41,501 bases of DNA from a virus: IMG/VR virus record IMGVR_UViG_3300048930_000438, positions 1-41,501 of that record; one strand, written 5' to 3'. The notes beneath the pieces were generated by a model. That model made no database searches. It had not been told where the DNA came from and was given only the letters and a program-made list of their open reading frames with translations. Shown here piece by piece: positions 3,530-37,122 of this stretch. Position 1 is the first letter of the stretch; every line of letters begins with the position of its first letter. The position numbers and the translations under genes are program-made.

Positions 3530-3777
3530 TGGGCACCACCATTCGCCGGCGACATGTCCAGCAGGTCCGAGAGATTGAATCCTTCGTTGCACCAGTCCTG
3601 GACAACCCGCATACAAACCGTGCACCGAAAGAAACTGGATCCAAACCCGACCGGCTCATCCTGAACGAGTTCCCAACCTTCACCCGCTACCTGCCAATAG
3701 GTGAGCGCCATCAGTGGTTCCTCGAAACGGAGATTCGTGGGGAATTCAGCATTGCAGTGCGGACATTCGAGTCTCAT
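3526..3777 (-). CDS. Small zinc-ribbon protein
   Basis: 83 residues. Starts MRLECPHCNAEFP and has a second pair CTVC at about residue 52-55, so one four-cysteine zinc ribbon split by a Trp-rich insertion. Possible adaptor or transcription-related protein. Translationally coupled on both sides (ATGA at 3526-3529 and at 3774-3777). Confidence 0.65.
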   Translation of the reverse strand: MRLECPHCNAEFPTNLRFEEPLMALTYWQVAGEGWELVQDEPVGFGSSFFRCTVCMRVVQDWCNEGFNLSDLLDMSPANGGAQ

Positions 3778-4163
3778 GCCTGCACCTCTTCCACGAGTCG
3801 CACCTGGTCGATGGCGAACCTCTCCTCGACGCCCAGGGCCCCAAGTCGAACCGTGACCGGGGTGCGCGATCGTCGCCCCTTCCGGATCGCATGGAACCCG
3901 CTCACCACGCCATGGACCTCACGCCACCCGGGGGCATCCACGATCACACGAGCGCCGCGCACGAACCGGGCTTTCGCCGAGGCGAGCTCGGCCTCCTTCA
4001 CCCGGCATTCAGGACCGATTCCGAGGTGCACCGACTCAGGGTCGGAGAGCAGCTGACCGCACATCCGGCAGTAGCGGGTGGGCAGAGTGCCGGCGGCGCG
4101 CCTCGCCTCTCGGCCGCGCTCGAGCAAATGGCGTTGGGAGTGGGGTATACTCTGGTTGTTCAT
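3774..4163 (-). CDS. DUF6011-like zinc motif fused to SH3-like domain
   Basis: 129 residues from ATG at 4163. Residues about 30-60 carry RYCRMCGQLLSDPESVHLGIGPEC, the DUF6011 pattern also present in the gene at 1298-1519. Residues 70-125 (FVRGARVIVDAPGWREVHGVVSGF, later TPVTVRLG) look like an SH3/KOW barrel, so this protein joins the two small-domain types of the operon. Start chosen because upstream codons belong to the intergenic hairpin region; an AAGG lies about 10 bases before the ATG. Confidence 0.7.
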   Translation of the reverse strand: MNNQSIPHSQRHLLERGREARRAAGTLPTRYCRMCGQLLSDPESVHLGIGPECRVKEAELASAKARFVRGARVIVDAPGWREVHGVVSGFHAIRKGRRSRTPVTVRLGALGVEERFAIDQVRLVEEVQA

Positions 4164-4170
4164 TTCAAAA

Positions 4171-4222
4171 CCTTGGGGCCCGATTGGGGCCGCGAGAGGC
4201 CCGCCTGGCAGCGGGTCTTTTC
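4171..4222. promoter_or_regulatory. Phased GGCC boxes and hairpin between early genes 1 and 2
   Basis: GGGCCC at 4176, GGGCCG at 4187 and AGGCCC at 4197 are spaced 11 and 10 bp. The last box overlaps a hairpin (AGGCCCGC, CTGGCA, GCGGGTCT) followed by TTTT on the plus strand. No rightward gene ends here. The element sits in the 106-base gap between the Cro-like gene and the rest of the early operon, so it may regulate read-through of leftward RNA polymerase. Mechanism unknown. Confidence 0.45.
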
Positions 4223-4269
4223 GTGTGCGCCTTGCTTTACTTCCAGAAATAAAGCGATGTTTAGGGCCG

Positions 4270-4512
4270 TCATGGGCCCACCGGTTCGAAGAGCTCCGAG
4301 ACGGGTCGGCCGATGAATGACGCAATTCGCTCTGCGCGCTCAATCGGCATGTGCCGGTAGCCGTTGCAGTACTGGTTCACCACCGGCCGGGTCACTCCAA
4401 GATCGCGAGCGACTTCCGCTTGCGCGATATCCAACTCAACCAACACCTCCCGCAGTCGCGTGGCTCTGTACGGCCGGCGATCGCGTGGTGGTCGAGCAGG
4501 TGCAGAGATCAT
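4270..4512 (-). CDS. XRE-family Cro-like regulator
   Basis: 80 residues from ATG at 4512, which has AAGGAG seven bases upstream; the in-frame ATG at 4527 lacks a ribosome-binding site. The helix-turn-helix is VELDIAQAEVARDLGVTRPVVNQYCNGYRHMP. Transcribed away from the repressor gene at 4670, with operator-like repeats between them, the layout of Cro/CI switches. First gene of the leftward early operon. Likely a DNA-binding dimer acting on the 4547-4578 repeats. Confidence 0.8.
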   Translation of the reverse strand: MISAPARPPRDRRPYRATRLREVLVELDIAQAEVARDLGVTRPVVNQYCNGYRHMPIERAERIASFIGRPVSELFEPVGP

Positions 4513-4541
4513 GGACACTCCTTTCATCGGTGGAACTCTCG

Positions 4542-4569
4542 CCCATATGGAACCATGTCGTGGTGACAA
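4542..4569 (-). promoter_or_regulatory. Candidate leftward early promoter
   Basis: On the minus strand TTGTCA (4569-4564), a 16 bp spacer and TATGGG (4547-4542). The -10 element overlaps one copy of the ATGGAACCAT repeat, so a bound repressor would block it. It lies about 30 bases upstream of the Cro-like start codon. The -10 is only a moderate match. Confidence 0.45.
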
Positions 4570-4578
4570 TGGAACCAT
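4547..4578. promoter_or_regulatory. Operator-like repeats in the immunity region
   Basis: ATGGAACCAT occurs at 4547-4556 and again at 4569-4578, 22 bp (about two helical turns) apart. Each copy is a short dyad (ATGG, AA, CCAT). A partial copy TACCAT is at 4625-4630. They lie in the gap between divergent regulator genes, as expected for binding sites of the Cro-like and CI-like proteins. Confidence 0.65.
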
Positions 4579-4669
4579 ACTACGACCCGGTTTCAATGTA
4601 AAGCACCGCGCAACGGCACATGTGTACCATCGAAGGGACGATTCCCCAGGGCCGCAAGCGGCCCCAACG

Positions 4670-5029
4670 ATGGACACATCTGTGGTGAGTGACATCTTTT
4701 TCGGGCAATGGCTATCCGGGTTGCTGAAGGTGCGAGGAATGAGCCAAGGGGAACTGGCTCGTCGTATCGAGGTACCCAGATCGACGGTCTCGAAATGGGT
4801 ACGAGGTGAGCACGTCCCGTCTCGGGACAGCTGCGACAAGATCGCTCTCGCCTTGGGGATTCCGTTCGAAGAGGTTGCGGCCGCTGCTGGTCACATGGTG
4901 CCAACAGAGACCTTCTCGCGGGGTCCGGTAAAAGATCGACTGGTGGAGCTGATCGAGCGGATTCCGAGTGAACAGCTCGCAGCGTTCATTCCGGTATTCG
5001 AGCAGTTGGCAGGGGAGGGGAGATCCTAA
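4670..5029 (+). CDS. XRE-family prophage repressor (CI-like, no peptidase domain)
   Basis: 119 residues. Helix-turn-helix at about 20-55 (MSQGELARRIEVPRSTVSKWVRGEHVP), followed by ALGIPFEEVAAAAGHM and a short C-terminal helix region (RLVELIERIPSEQLAAFIPVFEQLAGE). It lacks the S24-type self-cleavage domain of lambda CI, so RecA-triggered autocleavage is not expected. Start taken at ATG 4670; GTG at 4682 is an alternative and no strong ribosome-binding site precedes either. First gene of the rightward block, directly abutting the next gene at 5030. Paralogous in layout to the protein at 6093. Confidence 0.75.
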   Translation: MDTSVVSDIFFGQWLSGLLKVRGMSQGELARRIEVPRSTVSKWVRGEHVPSRDSCDKIALALGIPFEEVAAAAGHMVPTETFSRGPVKDRLVELIERIPSEQLAAFIPVFEQLAGEGRS

Positions 5030-5608
5030 ATGCGCATTGCAGTTCTGATCATTGGCCTGTTGCTTGGCGCCGTGATGTTTCTGCAGACCGTTTTGGTGTC
5101 TGGTCTGAGTGACGCAGCCAACGATGAAGCAAGTGCTCAATCGGGGGCTGTTGGCGTCTTCATGTCGTTGCTTTGGCTTGCTGCCTGCGCGTTCGTTATT
5201 CCGTTCCCCATGATTTCTGTCGTGGTGTTCGCTCTCGCTGGTGTGCTGGGGTTTGCTGCGAGCGGGGACTTCCCAGACCTGGCGATCTGGGGCGGCATCT
5301 CTCTGGTACTCGCTGTGCTCTCGCTTCTTGGCTGGCGAGGAAAGAGACGGGATCGTCGCGAGGCGGATGCGGAGCGGCAACGCCAGGTCGAACGAGACGA
5401 GCGCATGGAAGCCCTGTTACGCGGACAGACAGCCACGGCCAGCGCGGGAATTGCCGCTGCACCTTCTACGTGGATACCAGCACCTACCAGTACCGCCCCC
5501 GTCACCTTCCCGACGTTCTGTGCCAGTTGTAAGAGCCGCCTCGATCCAGGGGCGAAGTTCTGCATGGAATGCGGAACACCAGTTGCATCCTCGGAGAACA
5601 TGGCATGA
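5030..5608 (+). CDS. Membrane protein with C-terminal zinc ribbon
   Basis: 192 residues; ATG follows the repressor stop without a gap. About four hydrophobic segments (residues about 3-24, 42-58, 60-76, 84-99), then a charged helix (GKRRDRREADAERQRQVERDERMEALL) and a C-terminal zinc ribbon with CASC and CMECG. Zinc-ribbon plus membrane proteins are common prophage cargo. Co-transcription with the repressor suggests expression in the lysogen, so superinfection exclusion or a membrane-sensing role are possible. No direct evidence for either. Confidence 0.7.
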   Translation: MRIAVLIIGLLLGAVMFLQTVLVSGLSDAANDEASAQSGAVGVFMSLLWLAACAFVIPFPMISVVVFALAGVLGFAASGDFPDLAIWGGISLVLAVLSLLGWRGKRRDRREADAERQRQVERDERMEALLRGQTATASAGIAAAPSTWIPAPTSTAPVTFPTFCASCKSRLDPGAKFCMECGTPVASSENMA

Positions 5609-6096
5609 CCACACGTCGCACGTTTCTTGTCGGCAGTCTGCTGGCCCTAATGCTCACCCAGCGGGCCACGGCCCAGGACACGGCCCCTCGCATAGAACTG
5701 GTGCAGGTGCTCCTTCCCGAGTCGTTGGCGACACCAGACCAGACCGGAACTCCTGACGTGTATGCCGGCGACGATCCGATCCAGGACCTCTGGTGGGAAC
5801 CGTGGTTGATCGGTGACCAGGTGATCGACGCCGGCGGCACGATCATCCAGCGCTTCCCCGGCACAGACACCCAAGGCTACGAACTCGGGACAGATGGTCT
5901 GATTGTCCGATCGGCGCTGCTCATGTTCAACCGGCCCATCTACTTCCTGCTCGCCACAAATACTGACCTCTCCGAAATTCCAGAGTCTCAGAAGTCGATC
6001 GGCTTCCTTGGCGGGTACGGGGGTGTCCATTACGCGCCGGAAATGGGACTAGAGCTGCCTATCGTCATTGCGCACGAGCTTGTGACTCCGGAGTGA
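5605..6096 (+). CDS. Exported protein with twin-arginine-like signal
   Basis: 163 residues from ATG at 5605, overlapping the upstream stop (ATGA). The N-terminus MTTRRTFLVGSLLALMLTQRATAQ has the RR-x-F-L pattern of Tat signals and a likely cleavage after ATAQ. The mature part begins with a linker containing TPDQTGTPD, a composition common in Chloroflexota secreted proteins. No lipobox Cys. The rest (DLWWEPWLIGDQVIDAGGTIIQRF) is beta-rich and unrecognised. Probable lysogenic-conversion gene acting outside the cell membrane. Confidence 0.65.
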   Translation: MTTRRTFLVGSLLALMLTQRATAQDTAPRIELVQVLLPESLATPDQTGTPDVYAGDDPIQDLWWEPWLIGDQVIDAGGTIIQRFPGTDTQGYELGTDGLIVRSALLMFNRPIYFLLATNTDLSEIPESQKSIGFLGGYGGVHYAPEMGLELPIVIAHELVTPE

Positions 6097-6506
6097 CCAT
6101 GACCGATCGCGAGATCTTCTTCCACGATGACCGCGACGACCACGGCATCGACCACCGGCGATCGCCCTTCGCCCGCTGGTTCCTCGCCATGCTAAAGACC
6201 CGGCACATGAGCCGTACCGAATTCGCCACCCGCATCGGTGTCGACCTGGCCTATATCAATCACTGGGCGCTCGATCGGCTGCCCAATCCCCAGAGCTGCC
6301 TGAAGATCGCCGAGGGCTTCGGTATTCCCAAGGCCGATGTCCTGATCGCTGCCGGCTACCTGGACGATACCCACGAGATCGATGACCGTAACCCGACCCG
6401 GGCCCGGCTTCATCACCTGATCGATCAGCTGGATCCCGAACTGCTCGAGCCGCACCTGGTCATCCTGGAGCGCACCGCGGCGATCCTGGGCATGAGCGAT
6501 GACTGA
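6093..6506 (+). CDS. Second XRE-family regulator
   Basis: Up to 137 residues. The start may be GTG at 6093 (GTGA overlap) or ATG at 6099. It has the same layout as the repressor at 4670: FARWFLAMLKTRHMSRTEFATRIGVDLAYINHW as the helix-turn-helix, then FGIPKADVLIAAGYL and a C-terminal helix LLEPHLVILERTAAIL. The recognition helix differs, so it probably binds other sites. Duplicate regulators in one rightward operon suggest a second control circuit, perhaps plasmid maintenance or the initiator at 7226. Confidence 0.7.
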   Translation: MTMTDREIFFHDDRDDHGIDHRRSPFARWFLAMLKTRHMSRTEFATRIGVDLAYINHWALDRLPNPQSCLKIAEGFGIPKADVLIAAGYLDDTHEIDDRNPTRARLHHLIDQLDPELLEPHLVILERTAAILGMSDD

Positions 6507-7095
6507 CGAGACGACGACCCCGGACGGGCCCGACGCGGCCCTCGATAGGCCGGAAGAGGCCCCCACTGACGAAACGGTCCTGATCGACACCGCCGCGGCT
6601 GCCATCTTCCACAACGTGCACCCGCGTACGATTCGCAAATGGATCGAAGCGGAGCGGATCCCGGCTGAAAAAATCGGCAACACCTACTTCATTCCGGTGA
6701 CCCGGGCGGAGCTGCTGGCGAAGGGACTGGATCCCGACGAGGTGGGCCGCGGCCGCGATGGGGAGTTCCCTGGCGACGACCATGCGCTTGTGGTGCGGCG
6801 ACCCACCATGCCAGCAGTCCAGTCGATCGACCTCGAACCGCTGGCCCAGACAATCAGGGAACTCACGGAGCGGAACGTGCAGCTGGCGGCCGCAGAAGCT
6901 GAGGCCCGGGGCCGTGAGGCCCTGGCCCTGGAGCGGGTCTTTCATGCAGAGGAACGGGCCGCTGCGGCCCAGCTGGCGGCCGACGAGGCGAAGGCGCGAG
7001 CGGAGGGCCTCGACCGGGAGTTGACGGCGTCTCGGAGCGCGTTGGTGGTGCGAGACGATCGGCCGGGGTGGAAGAGGTTCTTGGGGATCAAGTAG
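6499..7095 (+). CDS. Excisionase-type HTH protein with coiled coil
   Basis: 198 residues, overlapping the previous gene by 8 bases. Residues 28-75 form a MerR/excisionase-like helix-turn-helix (IDTAAAAIFHNVHPRTIRKWIEAERIPAEKIGNTYFIP). Residues about 110-185 are a long Ala/Glu/Arg-rich coiled coil. The C-terminus PGWKRFLGIK is a short amphipathic tail. This layout occurs in plasmid and phage DNA-organising proteins of high-GC bacteria. It might be a partition or centromere-binding protein or a transcription regulator. The family is not assigned. Confidence 0.65.
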   Translation: MTDETTTPDGPDAALDRPEEAPTDETVLIDTAAAAIFHNVHPRTIRKWIEAERIPAEKIGNTYFIPVTRAELLAKGLDPDEVGRGRDGEFPGDDHALVVRRPTMPAVQSIDLEPLAQTIRELTERNVQLAAAEAEARGREALALERVFHAEERAAAAQLAADEAKARAEGLDRELTASRSALVVRDDRPGWKRFLGIK

Positions 7096-7225
7096 ACACT
7101 TTCCACACACGGCGAATTCGTGCCTGAGATTGCGGAAAAGCGCTGGAAAATATTACAGAAATTATTACTGTGACGTTCCACGATGCCAAAATCCGACCAC
7201 AAATGTGGAGCCGTTTTGGCATCGC
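7096..7225. other. AT-rich gap with long interrupted palindrome
   Basis: Gap between convergent genes. Arms CGATGCCAAAA (7181-7191) and TTTTGGCATCG (7214-7224) are perfect 11-base inverted repeats. The loop holds a second small hairpin (CCAC, AAAT, GTGG). Just left of it is an AT-rich stretch (about 7147-7171) containing ACAG...CTGT. A sequence close to a DnaA box, CTTTCCACA, is at 7099-7107. There is no T-run after the palindrome on either strand, so a simple terminator is not the best reading. A binding site or origin/partition element is possible. Confidence 0.5.
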
Positions 7226-7882
7226 TCACCGGCCCTTGCCCCAGCGCACATCCCAGTCTCGCTGGGCATCCAGCCACGCCGCCGCCTGCTGTGGATCCCT
7301 GCCCATGGCCGGGGTGATCTCAGGACGCTTGTCTCGGTTCCCCACGATCAACGCACGGTCCCTGACCGGGTCCAATTCTCCAAAATCCAAAATGGGCAAT
7401 CTCTTGTTAACTGTTTGTTGTAAGACTGTTTCTTGTGTGTTCGATTTTCGGACACGGGGGGTGGAGTCTTTCGGTACCCCCCCTGTTTGATTTTCGGACA
7501 CGGGTGTCCGGTCTTTTTCGCCAGCAAATCGAAGCTTGTAAGTGGTCGGCTGATCACCCTGTTCGATGTCGGTATTGCGCGCGGTGACGATTATGCCGCG
7601 GTCGACCAGGGACTTGATCGCTGTCACAGCTGTCGACTTCGAAAGGCCCGTGCCGCTGTCCATGCGCTCACCGTCGCGCTTGACGATGCCCTCACAGATC
7701 TGCTTCAGGCTGATGTCGTCGGCATCCTTCTTGAACCCGAACGTCCGCCGGAAGATATAGAGCAGCACCTTGACCTCTGACCCCGAGAGGGTGGCCAGGA
7801 GTTGGTCGAAGAACTCGTCAGGGACCTGGGTGTAGTTGGGGGAGGCGAAGCCGGCGAACTGTTCAGGTGGTGGCTTCGTCAT
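7226..7882 (-). CDS. RepO-like replication initiator (second replicon gene)
   Basis: 218 residues from ATG at 7882. The N-terminal domain matches phage replication protein O types: FASPNYTQVPDEFFDQLLATLSGSEVKVLLYIFRRTFGFKK, then SLKQICEG, then GTGLSKSTAVTAIKSLVDRGII, a winged helix. Residues 140-165 are a linker encoded by DNA repeats. The C-terminus ends AWLDAQRDWDVRWGKGR. It stands alone, far from the early operon with its own initiator. This is why I suggest it serves plasmid-state replication. The start lies in an inverted repeat (7882-7901). Confidence 0.7.
   Translation of the reverse strand: MTKPPPEQFAGFASPNYTQVPDEFFDQLLATLSGSEVKVLLYIFRRTFGFKKDADDISLKQICEGIVKRDGERMDSGTGLSKSTAVTAIKSLVDRGIIVTARNTDIEQGDQPTTYKLRFAGEKDRTPVSENQTGGVPKDSTPRVRKSNTQETVLQQTVNKRLPILDFGELDPVRDRALIVGNRDKRPEITPAMGRDPQQAAAWLDAQRDWDVRWGKGR
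7438..7504. repeat. In-gene direct repeats and AT-rich element, candidate second origin
   Basis: A 21-base repeat at 7438-7458 and 7484-7504 differs at one base (position 5). The copies are 46 bases apart, not a multiple of three, so they are read in different frames (PVSENQT and RVRKSNT). Between them lies a dyad GGGGGGT...ACCCCCC, and copy 2 ends in GGACAC-GG-GTGTCC. On the side toward the gene end, about 7380-7440 is clearly AT-richer than the genome and could be the unwinding region. Confidence 0.65.
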
Positions 7883-7901
7883 GACCGGACCAACCCGGTC
7901 A
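7882..7901. promoter_or_regulatory. Inverted repeat over the second initiator start
   Basis: TGACCGG (7882-7888) and CCGGTCA (7895-7901) flank a 6-base spacer directly upstream of the ATG. On the mRNA this hairpin would hold the GGTTGGT region upstream of the start. It could be an autoregulatory operator or a translation-limiting hairpin. CCGGTCA occurs again near 7970-7976. Confidence 0.45.
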
Positions 7902-8223
7902 GGGGGGTGCACAGGGTACGATGTCGCGTGCTACGATGCTCTACAGACACGAGATGCCTCCCTCAAGGCTCCGGTCAGACCCTCGGATGGTGTGTCCAGC
8001 ACCGCCGGGGGTCGACTCTTTGACTGTCATTGAGGGCGGGTGAACCAACTGAGCAATCAACGGTGATCGACTCGTTAGGCCTCAGTACCCTCGGATGTGG
8101 TCACAGTGTCGCTTTAGGGCAGGGGATAAAGCAACCCGTTTGCCCACAGTCACGCACGCGCGACGCTGCTTTGCGGATAAGAGTAATTACGCGCATCGTC
8201 CACCAGGGGCCAGATTCCGCCAC
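7902..8223. other. Intergenic region upstream of second initiator
   Basis: No convincing gene. It holds repeats: TACGATG twice about 15 bases apart near 7917-7937, CCCTCGGATG twice (near 7980 and 8090), and a dyad GCTTTA...TAAAGC near 8111-8131. No tRNA-like fold was found. Probably the promoter/control region of the gene at 7226-7882. Confidence 0.4.
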
Positions 8224-8535
8224 TCAGAGGAACGCTTCGTGCTCCACCCGCGAGGCGGACAGCTTCCCGGTCTCCGTGGCCGGCTCCCATTCCACCAGCC
8301 AGCCCAGGTTGGCACCCAGGGCGAAGATCGTTCCCGCACACACCGAGTTCACCCCAGGGCCGTAGCAGGCATCCATTTCCAGCGCCCCTTTCGGCTCGGC
8401 GATCAGGATCACCCCGCTGTACCTGGCATCCCCCTGCAGCTGTTTCGCCAGCGCCTTGCAGGCCCGGCGCATGACGAGGTTGATCCGGTCCTGGTCCGGT
8501 GGCCACGGTCCCCAGTCTCTCGGTGCGCTCGCCAT
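8224..8535 (-). CDS. Hypothetical protein of SOS-boxed operon
   Basis: 103 residues from ATG at 8535, overlapping the upstream stop by one base (TGATG). Sequence MASAPRDWGPWPPDQDRINLVMRRACKALAKQL then GVILIAEPKGALEMDACYGPG suggests an alpha/beta protein. No known family. It is the second gene of a leftward pair behind a LexA-type box and next to the immunity/second-replicon region, so it is a candidate antirepressor or induction factor. This is inference from position only. Confidence 0.55.
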   Translation of the reverse strand: MASAPRDWGPWPPDQDRINLVMRRACKALAKQLQGDARYSGVILIAEPKGALEMDACYGPGVNSVCAGTIFALGANLGWLVEWEPATETGKLSASRVEHEAFL

Positions 8536-10575: not shown

Positions 10576-10641
10576 ATCATAGCGTGTAGTGCTTTGCATC
10601 GTGTGGGCCCACTGCGGCCCAGGGAGGGCCGTTTCCGGCCC
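10576..10641 (-). promoter_or_regulatory. Candidate lysis promoter with phased GGCC boxes
   Basis: On the minus strand TATGATG starts at 10581. Upstream of it are four boxes GGGCCC/CGGCCC/GGGCCG/CGGCCC starting at 10605, 10615, 10626 and 10636, spaced 10-11 bp. The last two can pair as a hairpin with a 4-base loop and may end transcription from the gene at 10650. TATGATG also occurs before the scaffold gene and before the accessory gene at 36091. Confidence 0.45.
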
Positions 10642-10649
10642 ATGGCGCT

Positions 10650-11075
10650 CTATGTACGACGTACAGGGATGTCGCCGATCGCGTGGGTGGGTGTGCCCTC
10701 CAGCGCTTCGGCCGTGCGCTGGTCCAGGGCCCGCATGGTGCGCCAGCGCCAGTATTTGTTCACGATGAGCGCTGACAGCGCCCCCACTCGAATGAGCAGG
10801 GCCAGCCAGCGAGGCTCATTCCACCCCGGCACGCCGCGGATCAGGAACACGAGGCCCAACGCCAGGATGAGCCAGCCGAGCGTCAGACCCTTGTTGCGCA
10901 GGGCCCAGCCGAGTTCGGTCCGGGAGGTGACTTTGGTCAGGCGGTCGGAGGCCCGGACGATCCGGAACTCGTCGCGCGCCTTGTCCAGGAAGGCGAAGCC
11001 GAACAGGAAGATCAGCAGGCCGTCCAGCGTGGAAATGGTGAGCAGTGAGCTCCAGTCAAGGTCGTGCAGGCTCAT
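10650..11075 (-). CDS. Membrane protein in lysis region
   Basis: 141 residues; ATG overlaps the upstream stop (TAATG). Hydrophobic segments at about residues 18-30 (LDGLLIFLFGFAF), 63-80 (LTLGWLILALGLVFLIRG) and 89-106. The region between the first two is basic and charged. Located between tail genes and endolysin, so it may be part of the lysis module (second holin or antiholin). Not assigned to a family. Confidence 0.6.
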   Translation of the reverse strand: MSLHDLDWSSLLTISTLDGLLIFLFGFAFLDKARDEFRIVRASDRLTKVTSRTELGWALRNKGLTLGWLILALGLVFLIRGVPGWNEPRWLALLIRVGALSALIVNKYWRWRTMRALDQRTAEALEGTPTHAIGDIPVRRT

Positions 11076-11236
11076 TAGTCACCCCCCAGCGTCGTCAGGT
11101 CGTCCAGGAAGTCACCAGTGCGGATGCGCTCGGTGCGCAACTTCGCTGCCCGCTCCTCCTCCTCCTGGGCCTTGAGCCGGCCCAGGTCGACGATGCCCAA
11201 CGCACTGAAGACGCGCAGCCAGAAGCGCCCGATCAT
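11075..11236 (-). CDS. Small protein, tail/lysis junction
   Basis: 53 residues from ATG at 11236 (MIGRFWLRVFSALGIVDLGRLKAQEEEERAAKL), ATGA overlap with the upstream gene. An N-terminal amphipathic or membrane-skimming helix is followed by a charged helix. Coupled on both sides to membrane-protein genes, so a lysis accessory role is possible. Confidence 0.6.
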   Translation of the reverse strand: MIGRFWLRVFSALGIVDLGRLKAQEEEERAAKLRTERIRTGDFLDDLTTLGGD

Positions 11237-11433
11237 GTGCCGTGCTCCCGTTTGCAGAGGGCGAGCTGATCCTTGAGGGCCTTGTTCTCCTCCCGGAGAG
11301 CGGCGATTGTGCGCTCCGACTGGGTCTGGACCAGGCCAATCACGTAGCTTGCCGCCTTGCCAATGGCCGTGCTCAGCGCGACGAACAGGCCTGTCCCGGC
11401 TGTAATGATTAGTGCCCATTCCGTGCCGCTCAT
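11233..11433 (-). CDS. Small membrane protein with coiled-coil tail
   Basis: 66 residues. One membrane span at about 6-32 (WALIITAGTGLFVALSTAIGKAASYVIG), then a coiled coil (SERTIAALREENKALKDQLALCKREHG). One span plus periplasm- or cytoplasm-facing coil resembles phage Rz-like spanins or haemolysin XhlA-type proteins, without clear homology. First of three short coupled genes before the endolysin. Confidence 0.6.
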   Translation of the reverse strand: MSGTEWALIITAGTGLFVALSTAIGKAASYVIGLVQTQSERTIAALREENKALKDQLALCKREHGT

Positions 11434-11478
11434 CGAACTCGCCTTGAATCGTCGTCTGCATTGCTTGCCTCCACGAAT

Positions 11479-11766
11479 CTACTCCACTGGTTCCCGGGCC
11501 GACAGGTTGCCGGTCACAATCCAGCCGGTTGCCAGCCGGGTCACCATCACCTCATCGCCTACGCTGGCGACCACATGGGCGAGGGCCGGCAGGCTCGCTT
11601 CGGGCCCTCCCTCGATTCCCTGCACCGTGATCCGCCGGCCGCTGAACCCGGTCACCCGGCGCACGTCATTCAGGGCGGCGAGATCCTGAGCCCGCCGTTG
11701 CTCACCTTCGGCCTCGAGGGCGATGAACATTCCCAGGAACTCATCGTCACCGTGCCCTACTGCCAT
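11479..11766 (-). CDS. Small tail-tip associated protein
   Basis: 95 residues from ATG at 11766 with AGGAGGG upstream; it overlaps the end of the large tail protein gene by 10 bases. A helical N-terminus (EDEFLGMFIALEAEGEQRR-like) is followed by a beta-rich part (VGDEVMVTRLATGWIVTGNL), suggesting a small OB or SH3 barrel. Position after the receptor-binding/tail-tip gene suggests a structural or assembly role. Confidence 0.6.
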   Translation of the reverse strand: MAVGHGDDEFLGMFIALEAEGEQRRAQDLAALNDVRRVTGFSGRRITVQGIEGGPEASLPALAHVVASVGDEVMVTRLATGWIVTGNLSAREPVE

Positions 11767-14144
11767 GGCTCCACCCTCCTGAGCTCGAGGCTCATCGTCG
11801 TGTTGGCTCCGTCCAGGCGGAGGGTGTAGCCGGTCCGCCACCACCGGCCGCTGTAGGTCACCCGATCGCCGTGCCGGATCTCGAGGCCCACGGTCTGGTG
11901 CACCTCGGCGAATGGATCCGGGAAGACGGGCAGGCTCAGCTTGCGCAGCCGACTCGCACGATCGGAGAGCAGGGCTTGCCCCTTTTCACGCATCCAGGCG
12001 CGTTTCTCTGCCTCCGTGTCGATCCCGTCCGGCCATTCAGTGATGTCGTCATACGGGGGATTCGCCCGGGTGTAGCCGAGTGACAAGGTCGACACCGGGG
12101 ACGTCGGGTTGTCGTTGACCAGCGTTTCTGCCAACGTCGGTTCCTCGCCATAGCCGAGCTTGCGAACGGTGACCCGGTTGGCCAGTCGGTCGGTGTCGGG
12201 TTGCTCAACGATCGCCCCCTCGATCTCGGCCGCGTCGGCGTCCGTGGCATTCGAATAGGTCTTCACCGGCGGGAGCTCGGTTTGCGGTCGATAAGGGCTG
12301 CTCACGAGGATCCCGCCCAGCAAGCACCAGGGGGCGTAGTGATTGCCCTCCACCATCACCTCACTCATCGCGGTGTAGACGGTAGTGCCTTGTGGCCAGG
12401 TGCGATCGCTCGCGGCCGAGACACCGGTATCCGGGATGCTGACCTGGTCAGGGCGCCAGCCCGCCTCATAGGCGAGCTGCCGGCAGAAGGCACCACCATC
12501 GACCCCAGTCCGCCAGACCAGGTCGTCACGGGTGGCCACCGCCAGCAGGTAGGTGCTGTCGCGGTTGTCGAGCGTGAGCTCCATGCCCGCGGCGTCGGTG
12601 GAGGCCGGGCCGGACTGCACCAGGTAGCGGCCCTGCGGCCCACTGATCTTGCTCCCGGCCGGATCCGTGATGGTGAGAACTGGCACGATCCAGTCGGTGA
12701 GCTGGGCGAGCAGGCCCGGATTCCCGAGGCTCAGACTCAACACCCGCTTCGGTGTGGCGTCTTCGTTCATCGTGATCGTGCCCCCCTCGATCCAGGCGGG
12801 GTCGATCTGGCCGAGGTGGTTACCGTAGCGATCGGTTCGCCACCACTCCACCGCGATCCCGTAGGCACCAGGCGTGACGAAGGGCACCATCCGCACGTAT
12901 TGCGGGATCTCGATGCTCGAGGTCTCGGCTCCATCGGCGGCCGAGACCGTGCCCGCATCCGCAACCCCCAGGGTGCTGCCGATCGTGCTGCCCTCGGTGG
13001 CCGAGATCGTGCCGCTGTCACTCATGGTTGCCGTGCCGGCGAGAGCCGAGGTTTCGGCGGCGGAGATCGTCCCTGCATCCGTCAACTCAACCAGCGTCGT
13101 CGTGGCGATCGTGATGGATTCGGTGACCGAAACGATTGCGTCGTCACTAACGTCGGCCGTCGTGGCCGTCGCGATCTCGATGGCTTCCGTGGCGCTGATC
13201 GTGCCGGTGTCCGTCAGGTCGACGGTGCCGGCAATCGCCAGGCCTTCTGTGGCCGAGACGGTCGCGCTGTCGCTGATGGCCGTGGTGGCCGCGATCACAG
13301 CAGCTTCGGTGGCCGAGACTGTTCCACTGTCAGCGAGATTGAAGGTGACCGCAACGTCGATCACCTCGGTGGCGGACATCGTCCCCGAATCGCCCACCGT
13401 CACCGTGCTGCCAAGCTCGATCGCTTCCGCTACCGAGACGGTTCCTGAGTCCGTGGCGTCCAGGGCCGACACCATCGCCACGGATTCCGCGTCCAGTGTT
13501 ACGGTGCCGGATTCCGTGATGTCGACCGTGGTTGGCCCGGCGGACTCATTCCCGAACGCCGCGACCACATGCGCTCTGGCCGCGGATAGCCCGCCCCGCT
13601 CGGTCATGGTGGTGGCGCCGGCCGCAGCCTGGATCACGTAGGAACAGGCCGTGATCCAGGCCCCTTGATCCGTGTCATTCAGGGTCACTTGCGGCGAATC
13701 CACCGCCGCGCCACTGGAATCAGACTCAGAGGTCATGCCAGACAAAATCAGGGAGGCCACGGTGGTGGTGACCTCTACGTCCGAACTGGTCACCGTGCCG
13801 GTGGCGCTATTCGTTGGCCCGGTCAACCACGCGTCATCGTTTTGGTAGGTGGAGGCAATTGTCCAGTACGAATCAATGCCGGACGCGGTCCAGCCCAGCG
13901 TATTGGAACCGGAGGCTGGCTCAATCAGATACCAGATTTGCGAACGGACGCCGGAGGCCCCGGCGTCCACCGCTTTTGTGAGCGAAACACCGCCATAGGT
14001 CATCGCGGTGATGGTATCCGTACTGTCCCGGATGCCCATGAACACCACTAGCAAGCGGTTGGCCCCACTCCCCGCGTCGTAGGCGAATGAACTAGACGAG
14101 GATGACGCCCCGCCAGCCGTCAGGCCAATCTTGCTAATGGCCAT
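11757..14144 (-). CDS. Tail-tip/receptor-binding protein with 20-residue repeats
   Basis: 795 residues. Residues 1-205 form a beta-rich domain common at phage tail ends (MAISKIGLTAGGASSSSSSF, AMTYGGVSLTKA). Residues about 211-413 contain about ten repeats of 20-22 residues of the form DSGTVSATEAxxIAxT. Residues 415-795 resemble the phage tail-tip protein type with EWWRTDRYGNHLGQ, LLAQLTDWIVPVLTI and VRKLGYGEE. It is likely the tail spike or adhesion protein contacting the host surface. The repeat region probably forms a solenoid or extended stalk. Confidence 0.65.
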   Translation of the reverse strand: MAISKIGLTAGGASSSSSSFAYDAGSGANRLLVVFMGIRDSTDTITAMTYGGVSLTKAVDAGASGVRSQIWYLIEPASGSNTLGWTASGIDSYWTIASTYQNDDAWLTGPTNSATGTVTSSDVEVTTTVASLILSGMTSESDSSGAAVDSPQVTLNDTDQGAWITACSYVIQAAAGATTMTERGGLSAARAHVVAAFGNESAGPTTVDITESGTVTLDAESVAMVSALDATDSGTVSVAEAIELGSTVTVGDSGTMSATEVIDVAVTFNLADSGTVSATEAAVIAATTAISDSATVSATEGLAIAGTVDLTDTGTISATEAIEIATATTADVSDDAIVSVTESITIATTTLVELTDAGTISAAETSALAGTATMSDSGTISATEGSTIGSTLGVADAGTVSAADGAETSSIEIPQYVRMVPFVTPGAYGIAVEWWRTDRYGNHLGQIDPAWIEGGTITMNEDATPKRVLSLSLGNPGLLAQLTDWIVPVLTITDPAGSKISGPQGRYLVQSGPASTDAAGMELTLDNRDSTYLLAVATRDDLVWRTGVDGGAFCRQLAYEAGWRPDQVSIPDTGVSAASDRTWPQGTTVYTAMSEVMVEGNHYAPWCLLGGILVSSPYRPQTELPPVKTYSNATDADAAEIEGAIVEQPDTDRLANRVTVRKLGYGEEPTLAETLVNDNPTSPVSTLSLGYTRANPPYDDITEWPDGIDTEAEKRAWMREKGQALLSDRASRLRKLSLPVFPDPFAEVHQTVGLEIRHGDRVTYSGRWWRTGYTLRLDGANTTMSLELRRVEPWQ
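12906..13514 (-). repeat. About ten 60-66 bp repeats in tail-tip gene
   Basis: Tandem coding repeats of about 20 residues with the core (D/E)SGTVSATE; two units are 22 residues. Units are diverged, so the array is old or under diversifying selection. The repeat number may vary between related phages. Confidence 0.75.
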
Positions 14145-17450: not shown

Positions 17451-20400
17451 CAGAGGCCTCCTGTGGTGGTTGTGGTGGTGGTCAGGGATTTGGCTTTCTT
17501 GAACAGGGCCGCCACGCGCTCCGGAGCGGCCTTGCCGGCCTCAGCGTTGCGCACGACTTCGAGCCACTCTTCCGAGGGCATGGCCAGCAAGAGGGTCTGG
17601 TGCGTGACGTGGCTGACCTGGGGGGCCGTTCCATAGCCACCGAGGGCCATTGGCGGCCCGGTGAGGCCAATGCCGCCCCCGATCGCGGCCGGGTGGCTGT
17701 AGGTGCTGAACATGTCACCAATGGCCGTGGTCACCGAAGGAATCCCGTCGCGGATGGCGCCGACCACCCCGCGGGGGATCCACTTCGCGATGCCGTAGAA
17801 GAGCTTCGAGGGACTGGAGATGATGGCCTTGGCGATCATGGCGGTGGCTGCGGCCGAAACCATGGCGTTGGCTGCAGCCTGGATCCGCCCCAGCTGGGAC
17901 TCCATACCTGAGGCGAAGGCGCTGCCGATGTTGGCACCGATGCCGCGCGCGACACCGACCGCCTGCCCACCGACGCTGGACACGATGCCCGGGATCCGGC
18001 CCAGTCCGGCCGACACGCCAGCGGCGGCCGCCGCGGCCCCTGCGGTCAGCACCTGGCGCATCGCGTTGGCCGAGCTCGTGGCGCTCTGCACCATCACGAG
18101 GCCCTGCACCTTGACGGCGGCGGCCATGGCAGCGCTTTGCAGGGCGACCGCCATCTGTGTCCCGGCCATCGCCAGGGACACATTCGACTTCATGGTGTTG
18201 GCGTTGGCGCTCACCGCCGCCTGCATCCCCGAGGACGCCGAGGTGGCATTGGTTCGCATCGTGCTGGTGTTGGCAGTTACTGCGGCCTGCATGCCGGCCG
18301 AGGCCGCAGCGGCCACGGCCTGGGCCCCACCAAAGGCAGCCTGGGTGATCGGCGGCAGCGGCATCAGGTTCGCGTTGAATGCGCCCTGAATGGCTGCCAG
18401 GGAGGCCGTGGGGGCGATCGACCAGGTGGGTGGCGCCTGCTGGAAGCCAAGCGAGATCGGCGGGATGTTGACGTCGTAGGCGGCCTTCAGGGCAGCGAAG
18501 GCCCCAGCCACGCCGGCGAGCTGCTCTTTCGCTCCGGCGAGCCCGCTGAAGTCGATGGGAGCAGAGACACGGCCTTGGCTCGGCCTGACGATGGTGCCGC
18601 CGGCAGCACCGCCGCCATCATCGTCATTGTCGCCACCCGTAGTTGTTCCGTTGCCATCGTCTCCACCCATCGGGTTGCCGGGAACTGCAGCATTGACGAT
18701 GGCCGCAAGAATTTCTTCCCTACTTGGCCAGCCTGGGAAATCCGGAATGTCGATCTGGCCTGTGATCCAGTCGAGGAGTCCCTGGGCGACGTCGATCGCC
18801 TCACCGAAGAGCGCGGTCCAGTCGACCGATGTGACGAGGCTCTTGATGTGGCCGAGGAACCCGGTGCCAATCTCGGCTGCCTTGGTGAAGATGGCCGTCC
18901 AGTCAACCGAGGCGATCAAGCTCGTGATATGGCCGCCCACCGTAGCACCAAGTGATCCTGCCTTGGTGAAGAGCGCTTTCCAGTCGACCGCAGTGATGAG
19001 CGAGACGATATGACCGCCAACGGTGGCCCCCAGGGATCCTGCCTTGGTGAAGAGCGCTTTCCAGTCGACTGCGGTGATGAGTGAAACGATGTGGCCGCCT
19101 ACCGTGGCGGCGAGAGATCCCGCTTTCGTGAACAGCGCCATCCAGTCGACCGCGGTGATCAGAGAGATGATGTGGCTGGCTACCGCGCCACCGATCTCGG
19201 CCGCCCTGGTGAAGAGCTGTAGCCAGTCAACGGAGGCAATCAGACTCACGATGTGGGCAGCGATGGTCCCACCAATCTCGCCTGCTTTCGTGAAGAGCTG
19301 CAGCCAGTCGACGGAAGCAATGAGACCGATGATGTGGTCGCCGACCTTCGAGGCCAGCGAACCTCCCTTCGTGAAGAGTTCTTTCCAATCCACCGAGCCG
19401 ATCAGACTGACGATGTGGTCGCCGATTTTGGAGGCCAGAGATCCTGCCCTGGTGAAGAGTTCCTTCCAGTCCACCGCCGCGATGAGGCCGGTGATGTGGT
19501 CCCCGACCTTCCCAGCGAGGGAGCCGGCTTTGGTGAAGAGCTCTTTCCAGTCGACCGCGGTAATCAGGCCGACGATGTGCCCGCCGATCTGGGCACCAAT
19601 GGACCCGGCCTTGGTGAACAGGTCCATCCAGTCGACGTCGGTGATGAAACTCTTGATGTGGTTGAAGAGCTTGACCCCGATGTCGCCGGCCTTGCCGAGG
19701 ATGCCGGCCCAGTCGACGTTGGGGATGAACTGCGACCAGTCGATCGAGGTGATGGCATCCCAGGCGAACTGCAGCCCGGTCTGGATCGCTGACCACGCTC
19801 CGGAGAGGAAGCCACCCCAGTCGATATTGCTGATCGAGCTGACAATGTCGCCGATCGCCGATTTGATGACCGCGAACGCCGCACTGGCGGCCGTCCTCAG
19901 CGTGTCCCAGACACCGGACCAGCCGTCGGCCGCGAACGCGGCTTTCAGCGCATCCATCAGGCCGATGAGCGCCTGGATGCCGGGCATCAGGAAGTCGATC
20001 GCCGCTCGCACGCCATCGGCGAAGCCCAGGAAGTTCGTCTGGTAGGCGACGTAGAGGCCCGCGATCGCCGCGACGATCAGGGTGATGGGTGAGAAGAGGA
20101 CGGCCATCACGCCGGCTAGGACACCGGTGGCAGCAGCGGCAACCAGCGAGGCAGCGGCGACCACCCCAAGGCCGATCGCGACCCCCTGCAGGACCATCTT
20201 GACCGTGTCGCCGTGGTCAGCCAGGAACCCGAAGGCGTTCATAAGGCCATCGAGGGCGATCCCCTTGATGGCGGACGCCACCTGGCGGCCGACACTGACG
20301 ATTTTCTGGAATCCGGAGATCAGGTCCCGGACGAATTTCATGATTTGAGCCGCGGTCTGCCGGCCGAACGCCTTGAAGAGGACGTTCTGCAGCTCGGTCA

Positions 20401-22324: not shown

Positions 22325-23323
22325 CTAGAGGGATGCCAGGGTATTGACGAGGGTGACCTTGATCAACGGATTCGAGCCGTCCGGCGTCAGCTCGTAGTCG
22401 AACGGCAGAACGACCACCGGCGAATTGGGGGCGGTGCCGAACTCCCCTGTCTTGATGATCTTGATGGCGTAGTCGATCCAGAGCTTGTAGCGGATGGTGC
22501 CACCGATGATCGGGCCATCCACGGCCTGGCGGATGAACTTGGTCGCCCCGTTGCGGAAGTTGGCCCGCAAGGCGCTGGACACCGAGTCGAAGGCCACCAG
22601 CATCGCACCGTTGTATTCGACCTCTTCGTTTTCCAACAGCTGCAGGAACGACACCAGCGCGCTGTTGATCGGCGCATCCCGGCCATAGGTCTCACCCAGA
22701 GCCACCGAGGCGTCGTAGCAGGCGAGCAGCTTCGTCGTGCCCGTAGCGGCGTAGGTGTCATCGGCGAAGACGTTGTACTGGTTGGAGGCAATCGGCACGG
22801 CGGGAATGTCGGTGATGCCGGTCGACGCCAGGGTGATGGTGTCGTCCGGCGCCTTGCTCAAGCCCGAGGTTTCGAACGTGAGCTCCGATCGCTTCACCCC
22901 CATGGTGAGGGAGTTGAAGACGAAATAGAGCAGCTGCAGGGCCTTGGAGGTATCGCCCCACTGGACCGTGAAGGTGACCGGCGTGCGGGAGCCGCGGCCG
23001 GCCAGGGTGAAGACGTGCTGCCGGGCGGAAGGCGCGTTGACGTTGTCCGGCGTGGTGGTGACTGGCGTGCCCAGCAGGGAGCCCAGGACCAGGATGATCG
23101 CCTGGAAGTCCTGGATCCCTTCCACGGCATGCGCGCCGTATTCATCGCCGAGCACTCGGGCCGACGTCCCCCGCCACCCGGTCCCGGTGAACGATGAGCC
23201 ACCGTCTTCCCCGTATCCCGGCCGCAGCTTGAGCGACTGGAAGGACCGCATGGCGTTCACCGCGGCCACGCCGGGGGACGTCTCCTTCTGGATGAGTAGT
23301 TGCTGGTTCTGGATCGATCCCAT
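22325..23323 (-). CDS. Major tail tube protein
   Basis: 332 residues from ATG at 23323 with GAGGAG upstream. Starts MGSIQNQQLLIQKETSPGVAAVNAMRSFQSLKL, typical of siphovirus tube proteins (stretch naming the ETSPG motif after a beta strand). Beta-rich with TFETSGLSKAPDD and the C-terminal VVVLPFDYELTPDGSNPLIKVTLVNTL. Upstream of the chaperone pair and downstream of tail completion genes, the standard place. Polymerises as the tail tube around the tape measure. Confidence 0.8.
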   Translation of the reverse strand: MGSIQNQQLLIQKETSPGVAAVNAMRSFQSLKLRPGYGEDGGSSFTGTGWRGTSARVLGDEYGAHAVEGIQDFQAIILVLGSLLGTPVTTTPDNVNAPSARQHVFTLAGRGSRTPVTFTVQWGDTSKALQLLYFVFNSLTMGVKRSELTFETSGLSKAPDDTITLASTGITDIPAVPIASNQYNVFADDTYAATGTTKLLACYDASVALGETYGRDAPINSALVSFLQLLENEEVEYNGAMLVAFDSVSSALRANFRNGATKFIRQAVDGPIIGGTIRYKLWIDYAIKIIKTGEFGTAPNSPVVVLPFDYELTPDGSNPLIKVTLVNTLASL

Positions 23324-23327
23324 GGGA

Positions 23328-23768
23328 TCACGCTCCTCGCGTCACGTTGACGCTGTAGATGGTTCCAAGTTGTCGATAGGGCTGATCACGGACGGTGACC
23401 GTGGGGAGTGGGTACTCCTGCATGGCATCGACCGTGACCAGCCACATGTGCCCCCGGTGCTCGAGATCGAAGCGCTTGCCATGCAAGGCCTCGAACTGGG
23501 CATAGGCGGCGTCCTCGAGCGGGAGAAAGGATTCCCCGTCATCGATCATGCGCACGACACCGCGGAGGGTCTGCCCGGTGGGCAGGGCCCCGTTGCCGAT
23601 CGGCGTCGTGTATTGCGGGTTCTCGAAGTAGAAGAGGCCAGCCGGCAACGCGATGTCGGCCGGCACGACCATGTCATAGAGCAGGCGAGCGCCGGTCAGG
23701 GCGATCACCTCTGGAACACCGGTCAGCACCGAGGCGAGGATCCTGGCGGCGACCACTGAGGCAAACAT
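23328..23768 (-). CDS. Putative tail terminator / tail completion protein
   Basis: 146 residues from ATG at 23768, overlapping the stop of the preceding gene (TGATG). The frame further upstream is antisense of other genes. MFASVVAARILASVLTGVPEVIALTGARLLYDMVVP followed by beta-rich segments (LFYFENPQYTTPIG, HMWLVTVDAMQEYPLPTVTVRD). Gene order places the tail terminator just before the tube gene. Family recognised by context only. Confidence 0.6.
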   Translation of the reverse strand: MFASVVAARILASVLTGVPEVIALTGARLLYDMVVPADIALPAGLFYFENPQYTTPIGNGALPTGQTLRGVVRMIDDGESFLPLEDAAYAQFEALHGKRFDLEHRGHMWLVTVDAMQEYPLPTVTVRDQPYRQLGTIYSVNVTRGA

Positions 23769-24118
23769 CAGGCCCCTCCCAGCGCAGCTGCGCGAATGCT
23801 TGCCACGTACTCGGAAGCCATGGCGTCGACGATCGTGCTGGCCCAGGGCCGGGGTGGCTGGAAGATCGTGCCCTCGTGAACGTAGGCCGAGTAGTCCTCG
23901 ATGTACCCCACCGACCCCTCGAGATCGCCCGGACTGGCGTACTGGATGTCCAGGTTGCCGGCCATCGCCCCGGTGTCCCGCGGGATGATCTGGCTCGAGG
24001 CATCGATGTAGTTGTCGACCCCGTTGTTGATCGCCCGGGCCACGTTGGGCCTGAACTCCTGAGCCAGCTGGGGCAACTGGTTCCGGATGACCCGGACCCC
24101 CACCCGCACACCGCTCAT
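23768..24118 (-). CDS. HK97 gp10-like head-tail joining protein
   Basis: 116 residues from ATG at 24118. Pattern QLPQLAQEFRPNVARAINNGVDNYIDASSQIIPRDTGAMAGNLDIQ, then YIEDYSAYVHEGTIF, matches HK97 gp10/minor tail family (helix, PxDTGxLxxxI, YxxxVHxG). Acts at neck or tail completion. Coupled to neighbours on both sides. Confidence 0.75.
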   Translation of the reverse strand: MSGVRVGVRVIRNQLPQLAQEFRPNVARAINNGVDNYIDASSQIIPRDTGAMAGNLDIQYASPGDLEGSVGYIEDYSAYVHEGTIFQPPRPWASTIVDAMASEYVASIRAAALGGA

Positions 24119-24531
24119 CGGTCCAGCTCCAGGTAGACCGTGATGAACATCTCGGAGTCGTCACCTTTGAGCGGTTGGCCGATGATGTTGAACGTCCGGA
24201 TCTCGTTTTCTCCGACTTCCGGCCGGTTCGGCACCGTGATCCGCACCTTGTGCGAGGCCTTCACCTTCGAGGTGATCGGCAACTCGGCCATATACGCGCC
24301 CTCGGCGATCGCCACGCTGACCTCCTGGCGATCCTGGCCGCGGATGTCCGACTGATCGAGGGAGCAGCGCCCCGTCTCGATCACCGCCGGCGTCCTGATG
24401 CGCCCACCCTGCCCGTCGTTGCTCTTCGTCGGGTCGAGCAGCTCGTACCGGGCCACATGGAAGTTCTTCGCGATCAGGGGCGCGGCCTTTTCCCGGAAGA
24501 TCGCGGCGATCTTGTCGGCCGGCGTGCTCAC
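24115..24531 (-). CDS. Putative head-tail stopper protein
   Basis: 138 residues from GTG at 24531 (GTGA overlap with upstream stop). Beta-rich with RIRTPAVIETGRCSLDQSDIRGQDRQEVSVAIAEGAYMAELP and ITVPNRPEVGENEIRTFNIIG, consistent with small barrel stopper proteins (SPP1 gp16-like). Position between connector and gp10-like gene supports this. Confidence 0.6.
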   Translation of the reverse strand: MSTPADKIAAIFREKAAPLIAKNFHVARYELLDPTKSNDGQGGRIRTPAVIETGRCSLDQSDIRGQDRQEVSVAIAEGAYMAELPITSKVKASHKVRITVPNRPEVGENEIRTFNIIGQPLKGDDSEMFITVYLELDR

Positions 24532-24941
24532 AGTGGGAACTCCGCGGCGAGGCTCGAAATCATCCGCGCGGATCCGCTCGAGGGACCGTTGCCGGCCGGG
24601 ATCCCGCCCAGGACGTCGGCGCGACCCGTGAGGTAGTCCCCCGCGAAACCGCGCCACCGTTCCGCCAGGCCGACGGGGCGACGGAGGTACTTGCCCCGGC
24701 CGCCGCCCAGGTCGTCGTATTCCCCGGAGGCCAGCGCGGCCTTCTGGCGCCAGCCCTGGGCCGCTGCGGCATTGAGGGAATCGGAGGTGTAGACCGGGCT
24801 GGGCCCGACCTCCACCACGACGGCCGCCTGGGTCAGCAGGCGGGTCACCTGGTTCTCATCGATGTCCGGGTCGGTCTTCCCGAACGCCAGCGCATCCTTG
24901 AGCAGCTGCAGGGCAAGGGCCCCATCACTCAGCGTTGCCAT
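24528..24941 (-). CDS. Putative head-tail connector protein
   Basis: 137 residues from ATG at 24941 (MATLSDGALALQLLKDALAFGKTDPDIDENQVTRLLTQAAVVVE). Helical N-terminus as in HK97 gp6/SPP1 gp15 adaptors. The C-terminal part has GGGRGKYLRRPVGLAERW. Overlaps the upstream gene by 17 bases. Confidence 0.6.
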   Translation of the reverse strand: MATLSDGALALQLLKDALAFGKTDPDIDENQVTRLLTQAAVVVEVGPSPVYTSDSLNAAAAQGWRQKAALASGEYDDLGGGRGKYLRRPVGLAERWRGFAGDYLTGRADVLGGIPAGNGPSSGSARMISSLAAEFPL

Positions 24942-25161
24942 CGCCCTCCCCTTCCGGGGTGACCGCCGGGGGAGCCGGCTGCTTGGCGCGGGACTTGCGC
25001 ACCCGCTTCGGCTTCGGTGCCTCCTCTTCGTAGGGTGTGCCGTCCTGGTGGCCGATGATCTTGGCGTCGGGATAGACACGTCTGGCGACGGCGGCACTCG
25101 CTACCCCGTAGGTGGCGCCATCGGCGAGTTCGATGATGACGGGCTTGACTGGCTGGGTCAT
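24925..25161 (-). CDS. Small head-region protein
   Basis: 78 residues. Starts MTQPVKPVIIELADGATYGVASAAVARRVYPDAKIIGHQDG and ends in a charged Lys/Pro/Glu tail (EEEAPKPKRVRKSRAKQPAPPAVTPEGEGDG). The C-terminal part is likely disordered. Perhaps a capsid accessory or assembly factor. Start ATGA-coupled to the upstream gene. Confidence 0.6.
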   Translation of the reverse strand: MTQPVKPVIIELADGATYGVASAAVARRVYPDAKIIGHQDGTPYEEEAPKPKRVRKSRAKQPAPPAVTPEGEGDGNAE

Positions 25162-25727
25162 GCAGTGGGGCCCTCCAGCGGCGCCGGCGTGACGGTGTGC
25201 TTGCCGGTGTCGATGTTGCGGGTGACCTTCACCCGCTGGCCGTTGGGGCGATGCGTGAACCAGGTCTCGATGCGCTGGCCCTCACCGTCGACCGGCTCGG
25301 TTGGCTGCTCGATGAGATTGGCCGTCTGGGCCTTGGGATCCCGGCCCTCAAGGACGGCCCGGTATTCCTCCACCGTCATACCGGCGGCCCTGGCTTCGGC
25401 GATCAGGGCCTCTTCGGCGTCGTGGGGTGGAGCGTCCTGGTTATCGAGAGCGGCGATCTGGTCGGAGCTGAGCACCTGGTCAGCGGCAACCACGACGGTG
25501 TTGGGGACGACCGAAGGGGATGGATGCTCCGTAGGGCCGGGATCCGCCGCGGTCTGATGTTGGAGAATCGCGGTGATCACGTCCTCCTTTCTGGCCATGC
25601 TTTTGACGCCCTCGATCTTCAACTCGCCGGCTATCTCCTCGAGCTGGGGGCGGGTGAAATTCTTGTCGAGCTGCTCGGGATCGAGGTCCCCAAGTCGAAC
25701 CTCGGGGTCGGTCTGGGATTCAGCCAT
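25158..25727 (-). CDS. SAP/HeH-like domain protein after capsid gene
   Basis: 189 residues from ATG at 25727 (MAESQTDPEVRLGDLDPEQLDKN). Residues about 20-58 (FTRPQLEEIAGELKIEGVKSMARKEDVITAILQH) match the SAP/HeH/Rho-N helix-extended-loop-helix pattern found in proteins next to phage capsid genes. The rest is acidic, mostly disordered, with a C-terminal TWFTHRPNGQRVKVTRNIDTG strand pair. Probably a head accessory protein. Confidence 0.65.
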   Translation of the reverse strand: MAESQTDPEVRLGDLDPEQLDKNFTRPQLEEIAGELKIEGVKSMARKEDVITAILQHQTAADPGPTEHPSPSVVPNTVVVAADQVLSSDQIAALDNQDAPPHDAEEALIAEARAAGMTVEEYRAVLEGRDPKAQTANLIEQPTEPVDGEGQRIETWFTHRPNGQRVKVTRNIDTGKHTVTPAPLEGPTA

Positions 25728-36726: not shown

Positions 36727-37122
36727 TCATAACTCCTCGGGTAGTCGGACCCGCAGCACAGGATCCCGGTGGTCGTAGAAGAACTCGACTTCACGGCCGG
36801 CCAGCAACTCGTCGACGGCCGAGAGGTCCTCGGGGTAGGCGACGATCGCAGTCGCCCCGCGGGTCTGGTTGATGATCTCGAGCATTTCGACCTGGGCCGG
36901 CTTGGGCCGGCCCTTGGGGCCCTTGACTTCGATCCAGAGTGGATCGAATCCTGGGCGGAAGAGGGTGAGGTCGGGATACCCCGGATTGGCGCCGATCGAG
37001 TAGGGGTGATGAGTGACCGTCCAGCCGCACAGCTTGGCCATGTTGACGATCTTTCGCTGCCAGAGCTTCTCGGCTCCCTTCTGGGCTTCCTGCTTCCGGA
37101 ACTGCTCGGCCGACATGCTCAC
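36727..37122 (-). CDS. VRR-NUC domain nuclease
   Basis: 131 residues; GTG at 37122 (GTGA overlap) or ATG at 37116. Motif GYPDLTLFRPGFDPLWIEVKGPKGRPKPAQVEMLEII with the D...E-V-K catalytic set of the PD-(D/E)XK superfamily, VRR-NUC type. Common in phage replication regions, thought to cut branched or flap DNA. Acts in recombination or replication-intermediate processing. Confidence 0.85.
   Translation of the reverse strand: MSMSAEQFRKQEAQKGAEKLWQRKIVNMAKLCGWTVTHHPYSIGANPGYPDLTLFRPGFDPLWIEVKGPKGRPKPAQVEMLEIINQTRGATAIVAYPEDLSAVDELLAGREVEFFYDHRDPVLRVRLPEEL

Follow-up and report, generated by a model that had tools for sequence, protein, structure and literature searches.

The gene at 7226–7882 raises the question of how a tailed phage with a repressor block, but with no integrase that an earlier note could recognise, is kept in its dormant state. 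The note had taken two initiators and the repressor block as a sign of a phage-plasmid in which the lytic and the plasmid states use different origins. The window, i.e. the whole stretch of 41,501 bp analysed (an IMG/VR record classed as linear), carries terminase, portal, capsid and tail genes and no tRNA genes. The features discussed are collected in Table 1.

Table 1. Coordinates of the features in the window and, in the last three rows, in contigs carrying RepO relatives.
Feature	Coordinates	Strand	Basis
Initiator 1, N-terminal half (HTH_36/DnaD_N), runs off the contig end	2–487	minus	HTH_36, E 1.5e-12
Six exact AAAGGGTGAC iterons within initiator 1, spacing 22–36 bp	63–224	minus	motif count
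cro-like HTH_3 gene	4270–4512	minus	PF01381, E 9e-11
cI-like repressor, divergent from the cro-like gene	4670–5029	plus	HTH_3, E 2e-12, in ORF 4364–5029
Rest of the lysogeny block: zinc-ribbon, secreted-looking, second HTH_3 and HTH-coiled-coil proteins	5030–7095	plus	ORF map
Excisionase/MerR-type HTH-coiled-coil protein	6499–7095	plus	HTH_17, phrog_66, structure model
RepO-type initiator gene	7226–7882	minus	218 aa from ATG; PF04492 and phrog_678 matches
C-terminal tail of RepO, P-V-RDR..RP...AAWL..QRDWD, common to initiator 1	7250–7396	minus	shuffle-tested alignment
AT-rich stretch 3' of the RepO iterons	7374–7433	minus	67% AT
Strong iteron unit GTGTCCGAAAATCGAACAC, near-palindromic	7438–7458	minus	direct repeat, 23-bp rows
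Degenerate iteron unit GGTACCGAAAGACTCC, 23-bp register	7460–7482	minus	by-eye reading of 23-bp rows
Strong iteron unit GTGTCCGAAAATCAAACA	7484–7504	minus	direct repeat, 23-bp rows
Degenerate iteron unit GGCGAAAAAGACCGGAC, 23-bp register	7506–7528	minus	by-eye reading of 23-bp rows
Perfect inverted repeat TGACCGG-N6-CCGGTCA at the RepO start codon	7882–7901		search of window
Initiator 1, C-terminal half: DnaT-like segment and shared tail (40967–41113)	40952–41500	minus	DnaT, phrog_1032
RepO-PF11638 fusion, L083	9992–10741		E 6.8e-12
RepO-PF11638 fusion, L113	4734–5738		E 2e-12
RepO-PF11638 fusion, L086	883–1926		E 5.7e-9

The RepO-like gene that the earlier note had placed beside the lysogeny block was confirmed by matches to PF04492 (Phage_rep_O, E 1.6e-10, over the Pfam cutoff) and to the PHROG 'replication initiation O-like' family phrog_678 (E 8e-16); the TIGR01610 match stayed below the cutoff of that family. 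The ORF is intact and the conserved residues of the RepO family are present. In the AlphaFold model the protein consists of a confidently predicted winged-helix N domain, a linker predicted to be without structure (residues 126–203, low confidence) and a short C-terminal helix (209–217). None of the fold-search matches fell below 0.001. The search upstream of RepO for a sigma-70-like promoter was negative, and no P-type loader was identified among the genes scanned. The inverted repeat noted earlier at the start codon was recovered as the single perfect copy in the whole window and is possibly an autoregulatory site for RepO. Another perfect inverted repeat, of 11 bp (CGATGCCAAAA/TTTTGGCATCG, 7181–7191 and 7214–7224), is situated between the stop codon of RepO and the HTH-coiled-coil gene that converges on it.

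The in-gene repeats described earlier also held up. The two copies of the 21-bp direct repeat in the RepO linker are identical at 20 of 21 positions and are placed at gene nt 379–399 and 425–445, i.e. 46 bp (2 x 23) apart, so that they are read in different frames. The best repeat score was 18, compared with maxima of 13 in 200 dinucleotide shuffles and 14 in 200 synonymous-codon shuffles, and none of the shuffles of either kind reached it. The linker can be laid out in a 23-bp register of four units, two of them strong and two degenerate, the latter being read by eye. The AT maximum of the gene, 67% over gene nt 450–509 as against a gene mean of 41%, adjoins these units and is likely to be an unwinding element. 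Across the whole 41.5 kb, close near-identical 20-mers (pairs with at most one mismatch, within 120 nt) were confined to the two initiator genes and the tape-measure gene, the latter having an 81-nt in-frame repeat at 18951–19290. DnaA boxes (TTWTNCACA) were absent from the window. A terminator-like palindrome at 7494–7511, which overlaps the iteron DNA, was dropped because such sites were about as common in shuffled sequence.

The arrangement resembles that of lambdoid origins, which are placed in the middle of gene O with iterons followed by an AT-rich tract (PMC7466680). The annotated iterons of lambda O occupy gene nt 349–433 as four units whose starts are spaced by 20, 24 and 23 bp, and the AT maximum lies at 438–497, which is nearly the same gene position as in RepO. 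Both systems have an O-type initiator, linker iterons about 23 bp apart and a near-palindromic unit. In contrast to lambda O, RepO is probably the prophage replicator, stands outside the cro-side gene run and lacks an identified P-type loader, and the protein similarity is weak, with a local score of 66 compared with 232–360 for closer RepO relatives.

The second initiator named in the earlier note (initiator 1) proved to be real, but it is split over the contig ends. The phrog_1032 match covers family positions 1–113 in one contig end and 182–260 in the other; the DnaT match in the C-terminal half (E 7e-4) was below the cutoff. Since the gene is divided between both ends, a circular or permuted genome is probable, with a slight defect where the ends come together. 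No terminal overlap of the ends was detected, and because the reading frame is off by one base between the two halves, a small unsequenced gap is possible, which would lie inside initiator 1. Six exact copies of AAAGGGTGAC were counted in the gene with 0.06 expected. The last 50 residues of initiator 1 aligned with the tail of RepO (score 88, maximum of 2000 shuffles 55), and no further copies of this tail motif were present in the sequences compared. Neither half of initiator 1, used as a query, returned viral relatives.

The immunity region is of the cro/cI type, the start of the cI-like gene at 4670 being our reading within the longer ORF. On the minus strand, the cro-like gene is accompanied by ORFs down to initiator 1. 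On the plus strand, the cI-like gene and four more genes reach up to 7095, and RepO, on the minus strand, converges on them. Initiator 1 is accordingly inside the cro-strand gene run and RepO is outside it. The ORFs of the 5030–7095 block overlap or abut. The last of them, the HTH-coiled-coil protein, matched HTH_17 below the cutoff (E 5.5e-5) and also phrog_66; its model contains a 69-residue helix (113–181) and a short C-terminal helix, and Foldseek gave weak matches to BldC, RacA and Xis, none under 0.001. Neither viral relatives nor a plasmid match were found for it. It may be considered a candidate segregation or copy-control protein, a partition role being a guess. A search for an operator motif common to RepO and the immunity region was negative; the comparison of 4513–4690 with 7880–8240 returned a single 13-mer, with two mismatches. 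The early region also contains two DUF6011 genes, at 1298–1864 and 3774–4343 (E 2e-11 and 3e-11), and at 37119–38057 DUF4326 and HTH_3 are joined within one ORF.

The absence of a recognisable integrase, on which the earlier note relied, was corroborated: six-frame searches of the window with PF00589 and PF00239 were negative with positive controls, and the Pfam and PHROG scans of the main ORFs did not reveal an integrase either. The closest full-length structural relative, G005 (43.3 kb, terminase at 55%), is collinear with this phage from the terminase to the lysin, with 10 alignments spanning 9 genes whose order is conserved. Between its lysin and HTH repressor, G005 encodes a tyrosine integrase (PF00589, E 3.3e-28) that also has arm-binding and SAM-like domains, and in the window RepO and the plus-strand block occupy the corresponding slot. 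This comparison concerns one pair of phages; G003, also a close structural relative, is a partial record. Other terminase relatives vary, and PF04492 was absent from ten terminase relatives. The presence of RepO in the integrase slot of a close relative suggests that the dormant phage is probably a free plasmid.

The relatives of RepO were sought with two queries. RepO alone had no matches in viral contigs, and an alignment of its Chloroflexota relatives gave the matches described here; from these relatives the host phylum is probably Chloroflexota. Among the 18 virus records searched that contain a PF04492-type RepO, the window included, PF13614 was detected in 3. In these three (G412, G414 and G415; RepO identity 61%, 54% and 47%, respectively) ParA is located within about 1.3 kb of RepO, phage head or packaging/terminase genes are present by annotation or reading, and PF00589 and PF00239 had no match. 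A phrog_1032-type second initiator was not found in them. They share with this phage the RepO family with in-gene repeats, a tailed-phage gene content and the lack of integrase matches, but they differ in the ParA next to RepO, in the missing second initiator and in structural genes that are unrelated or weakly related. G412 is the nearest RepO relative (60.5% identity); its RepO has about five units 22–23 bp apart in two frames, followed by the same ACACAAGAAACAGT as in this phage. Linker direct repeats occurred in most further Chloroflexota relatives read and were absent in G085 and G413 at the word length used. In the window itself there was no partition ATPase beside RepO, and both PF13614 and a Walker A regex were negative for ParA, a type of partition system that many but not all phage-plasmids have.

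Outside the phages, a RepO relative adjoins ParA/ParB on L084, a 42.7 kb plasmid-like contig of Chloroflexia, and on a Miltoncostaea plasmid (circular, 815 kb) a weaker relative has an AAA ATPase and DnaB as neighbours. RepO relatives were also found on large chromosomal contigs, which indicates that the family is not plasmid-only. In the RepO tree, the backbone of which is poorly resolved, the gene pairs weakly (84/64) with that of G413, a record with an integrase within 2 kb, and it was not placed in the ParA group.

On the basis of the sequence, we regard it as fairly probable that this temperate tailed phage is a phage-plasmid with an extrachromosomal prophage. This part of the earlier proposal is favoured by the two initiators, the cro/cI-type block, the lack of an integrase, the exchanged slot and the ParA-linked relatives. 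The other part, that the prophage and the lytic state use different origins, we infer from gene placement only. The failure to find ParA and a shared operator speaks against the proposal as a whole. By analogy with P1, taken together with the gene placement, RepO would replicate the prophage and initiator 1 would serve lytic growth. In P1 the prophage replicon is distinct from the lytic one, which is under repressor control and has its oriL placed inside repL (PMC9948254). The likeness lies in two replicons within one phage, apparently divided between the prophage and the lytic state, and in a lytic origin presumed to be located within the gene of its initiator. Unlike P1, this phage had no RepA or RepL match in the family scans and no ParAB was found, and both of its origins are in-gene iteron arrays whose initiators have a common tail. 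In about 20% of cluster A mycobacteriophages parABS replaces the integration cassette (PMC7157519). RedRock and Miko are comparable in that extrachromosomal maintenance has replaced the integration cassette in otherwise related phages, but they use parABS with RepA or RNA-based origins, whereas here a lambda-type RepO without parABS is present.

In the mechanism proposed, the winged-helix domain of RepO would bind the iterons that its own gene carries in the part encoding the linker, the adjoining AT-rich stretch would melt, and the C-terminal tail would recruit a host helicase or loader. Once the repressor is off, initiator 1 would start lytic replication from its own, different in-gene iterons. 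As the tail is common to both initiators, they would recruit the same machinery and differ in the DNA bound and in the time of their synthesis. It is a tentative proposal, to which we give somewhat less than an even chance, that the phage has two lambda-type in-gene origins with different iterons and with initiators sharing a helicase-recruiting tail, that the DNA-binding domain used decides between lytic and plasmid replication, and that the prophage replicon arose when a single initiator gene took the place of an integrase cassette. If it is right, one compact gene with an internal origin can substitute for the integration cassette, so that a phage which integrated becomes a phage-plasmid. 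The different iterons and the common tail make the switch testable through domain swaps. A literature search turned up no dedicated report of a phage-plasmid for Chloroflexota.

An unlikely alternative is that the phage integrates by an unrecognised route, such as a divergent recombinase, a gene located in the gap or the action of host Xer recombinases on a dif-like site, and that RepO is an acquired module or serves as another lytic initiator. Small ORFs outside the scans and the possible gap at the contig ends leave room for such a gene; moreover, the closest structural relative integrates, and G413, grouped weakly with this RepO, has its integrase nearby. These points are opposed by the controlled six-frame searches, by the occupation of the integrase slot by RepO and by the pairing of RepO with ParA in three integrase-free phage records.

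Improbable, in our opinion, is an exchange or sharing of roles, in which RepO would be lytic and initiator 1 would serve the prophage, or both would act in both states. Lambda O is a lytic initiator, and the RepO of G412, G414 and G415, which have no phrog_1032-type initiator, may serve both states there. However, it is initiator 1 and not RepO that lies on the strand of cro in the downstream gene run, and it is the relatives of RepO that are linked to ParA. Very improbable is a RepO unused for replication, either a relic or a decoy origin in incompatibility or exclusion: only two of the four iteron units are well conserved, but the ORF is intact with the conserved residues of the family, and the repeats exceed all shuffles, the synonymous ones included.

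Several observations were made on the RepO relatives in passing. In L083, L113 and L086 the DnaA N-terminal domain (PF11638) is fused C-terminally to Chloroflexota RepO proteins, and the alignment profile also matches the solved DnaA domain I. Two winged-helix units occur, in tandem or in neighbouring ORFs, in the RepO relatives of L084 (9914–10765), L089, L102 and G416 (10619–12090). In G415, an ATPase-like ORF at 22877–25201 reads by eye as interrupted by an intein-type insert.
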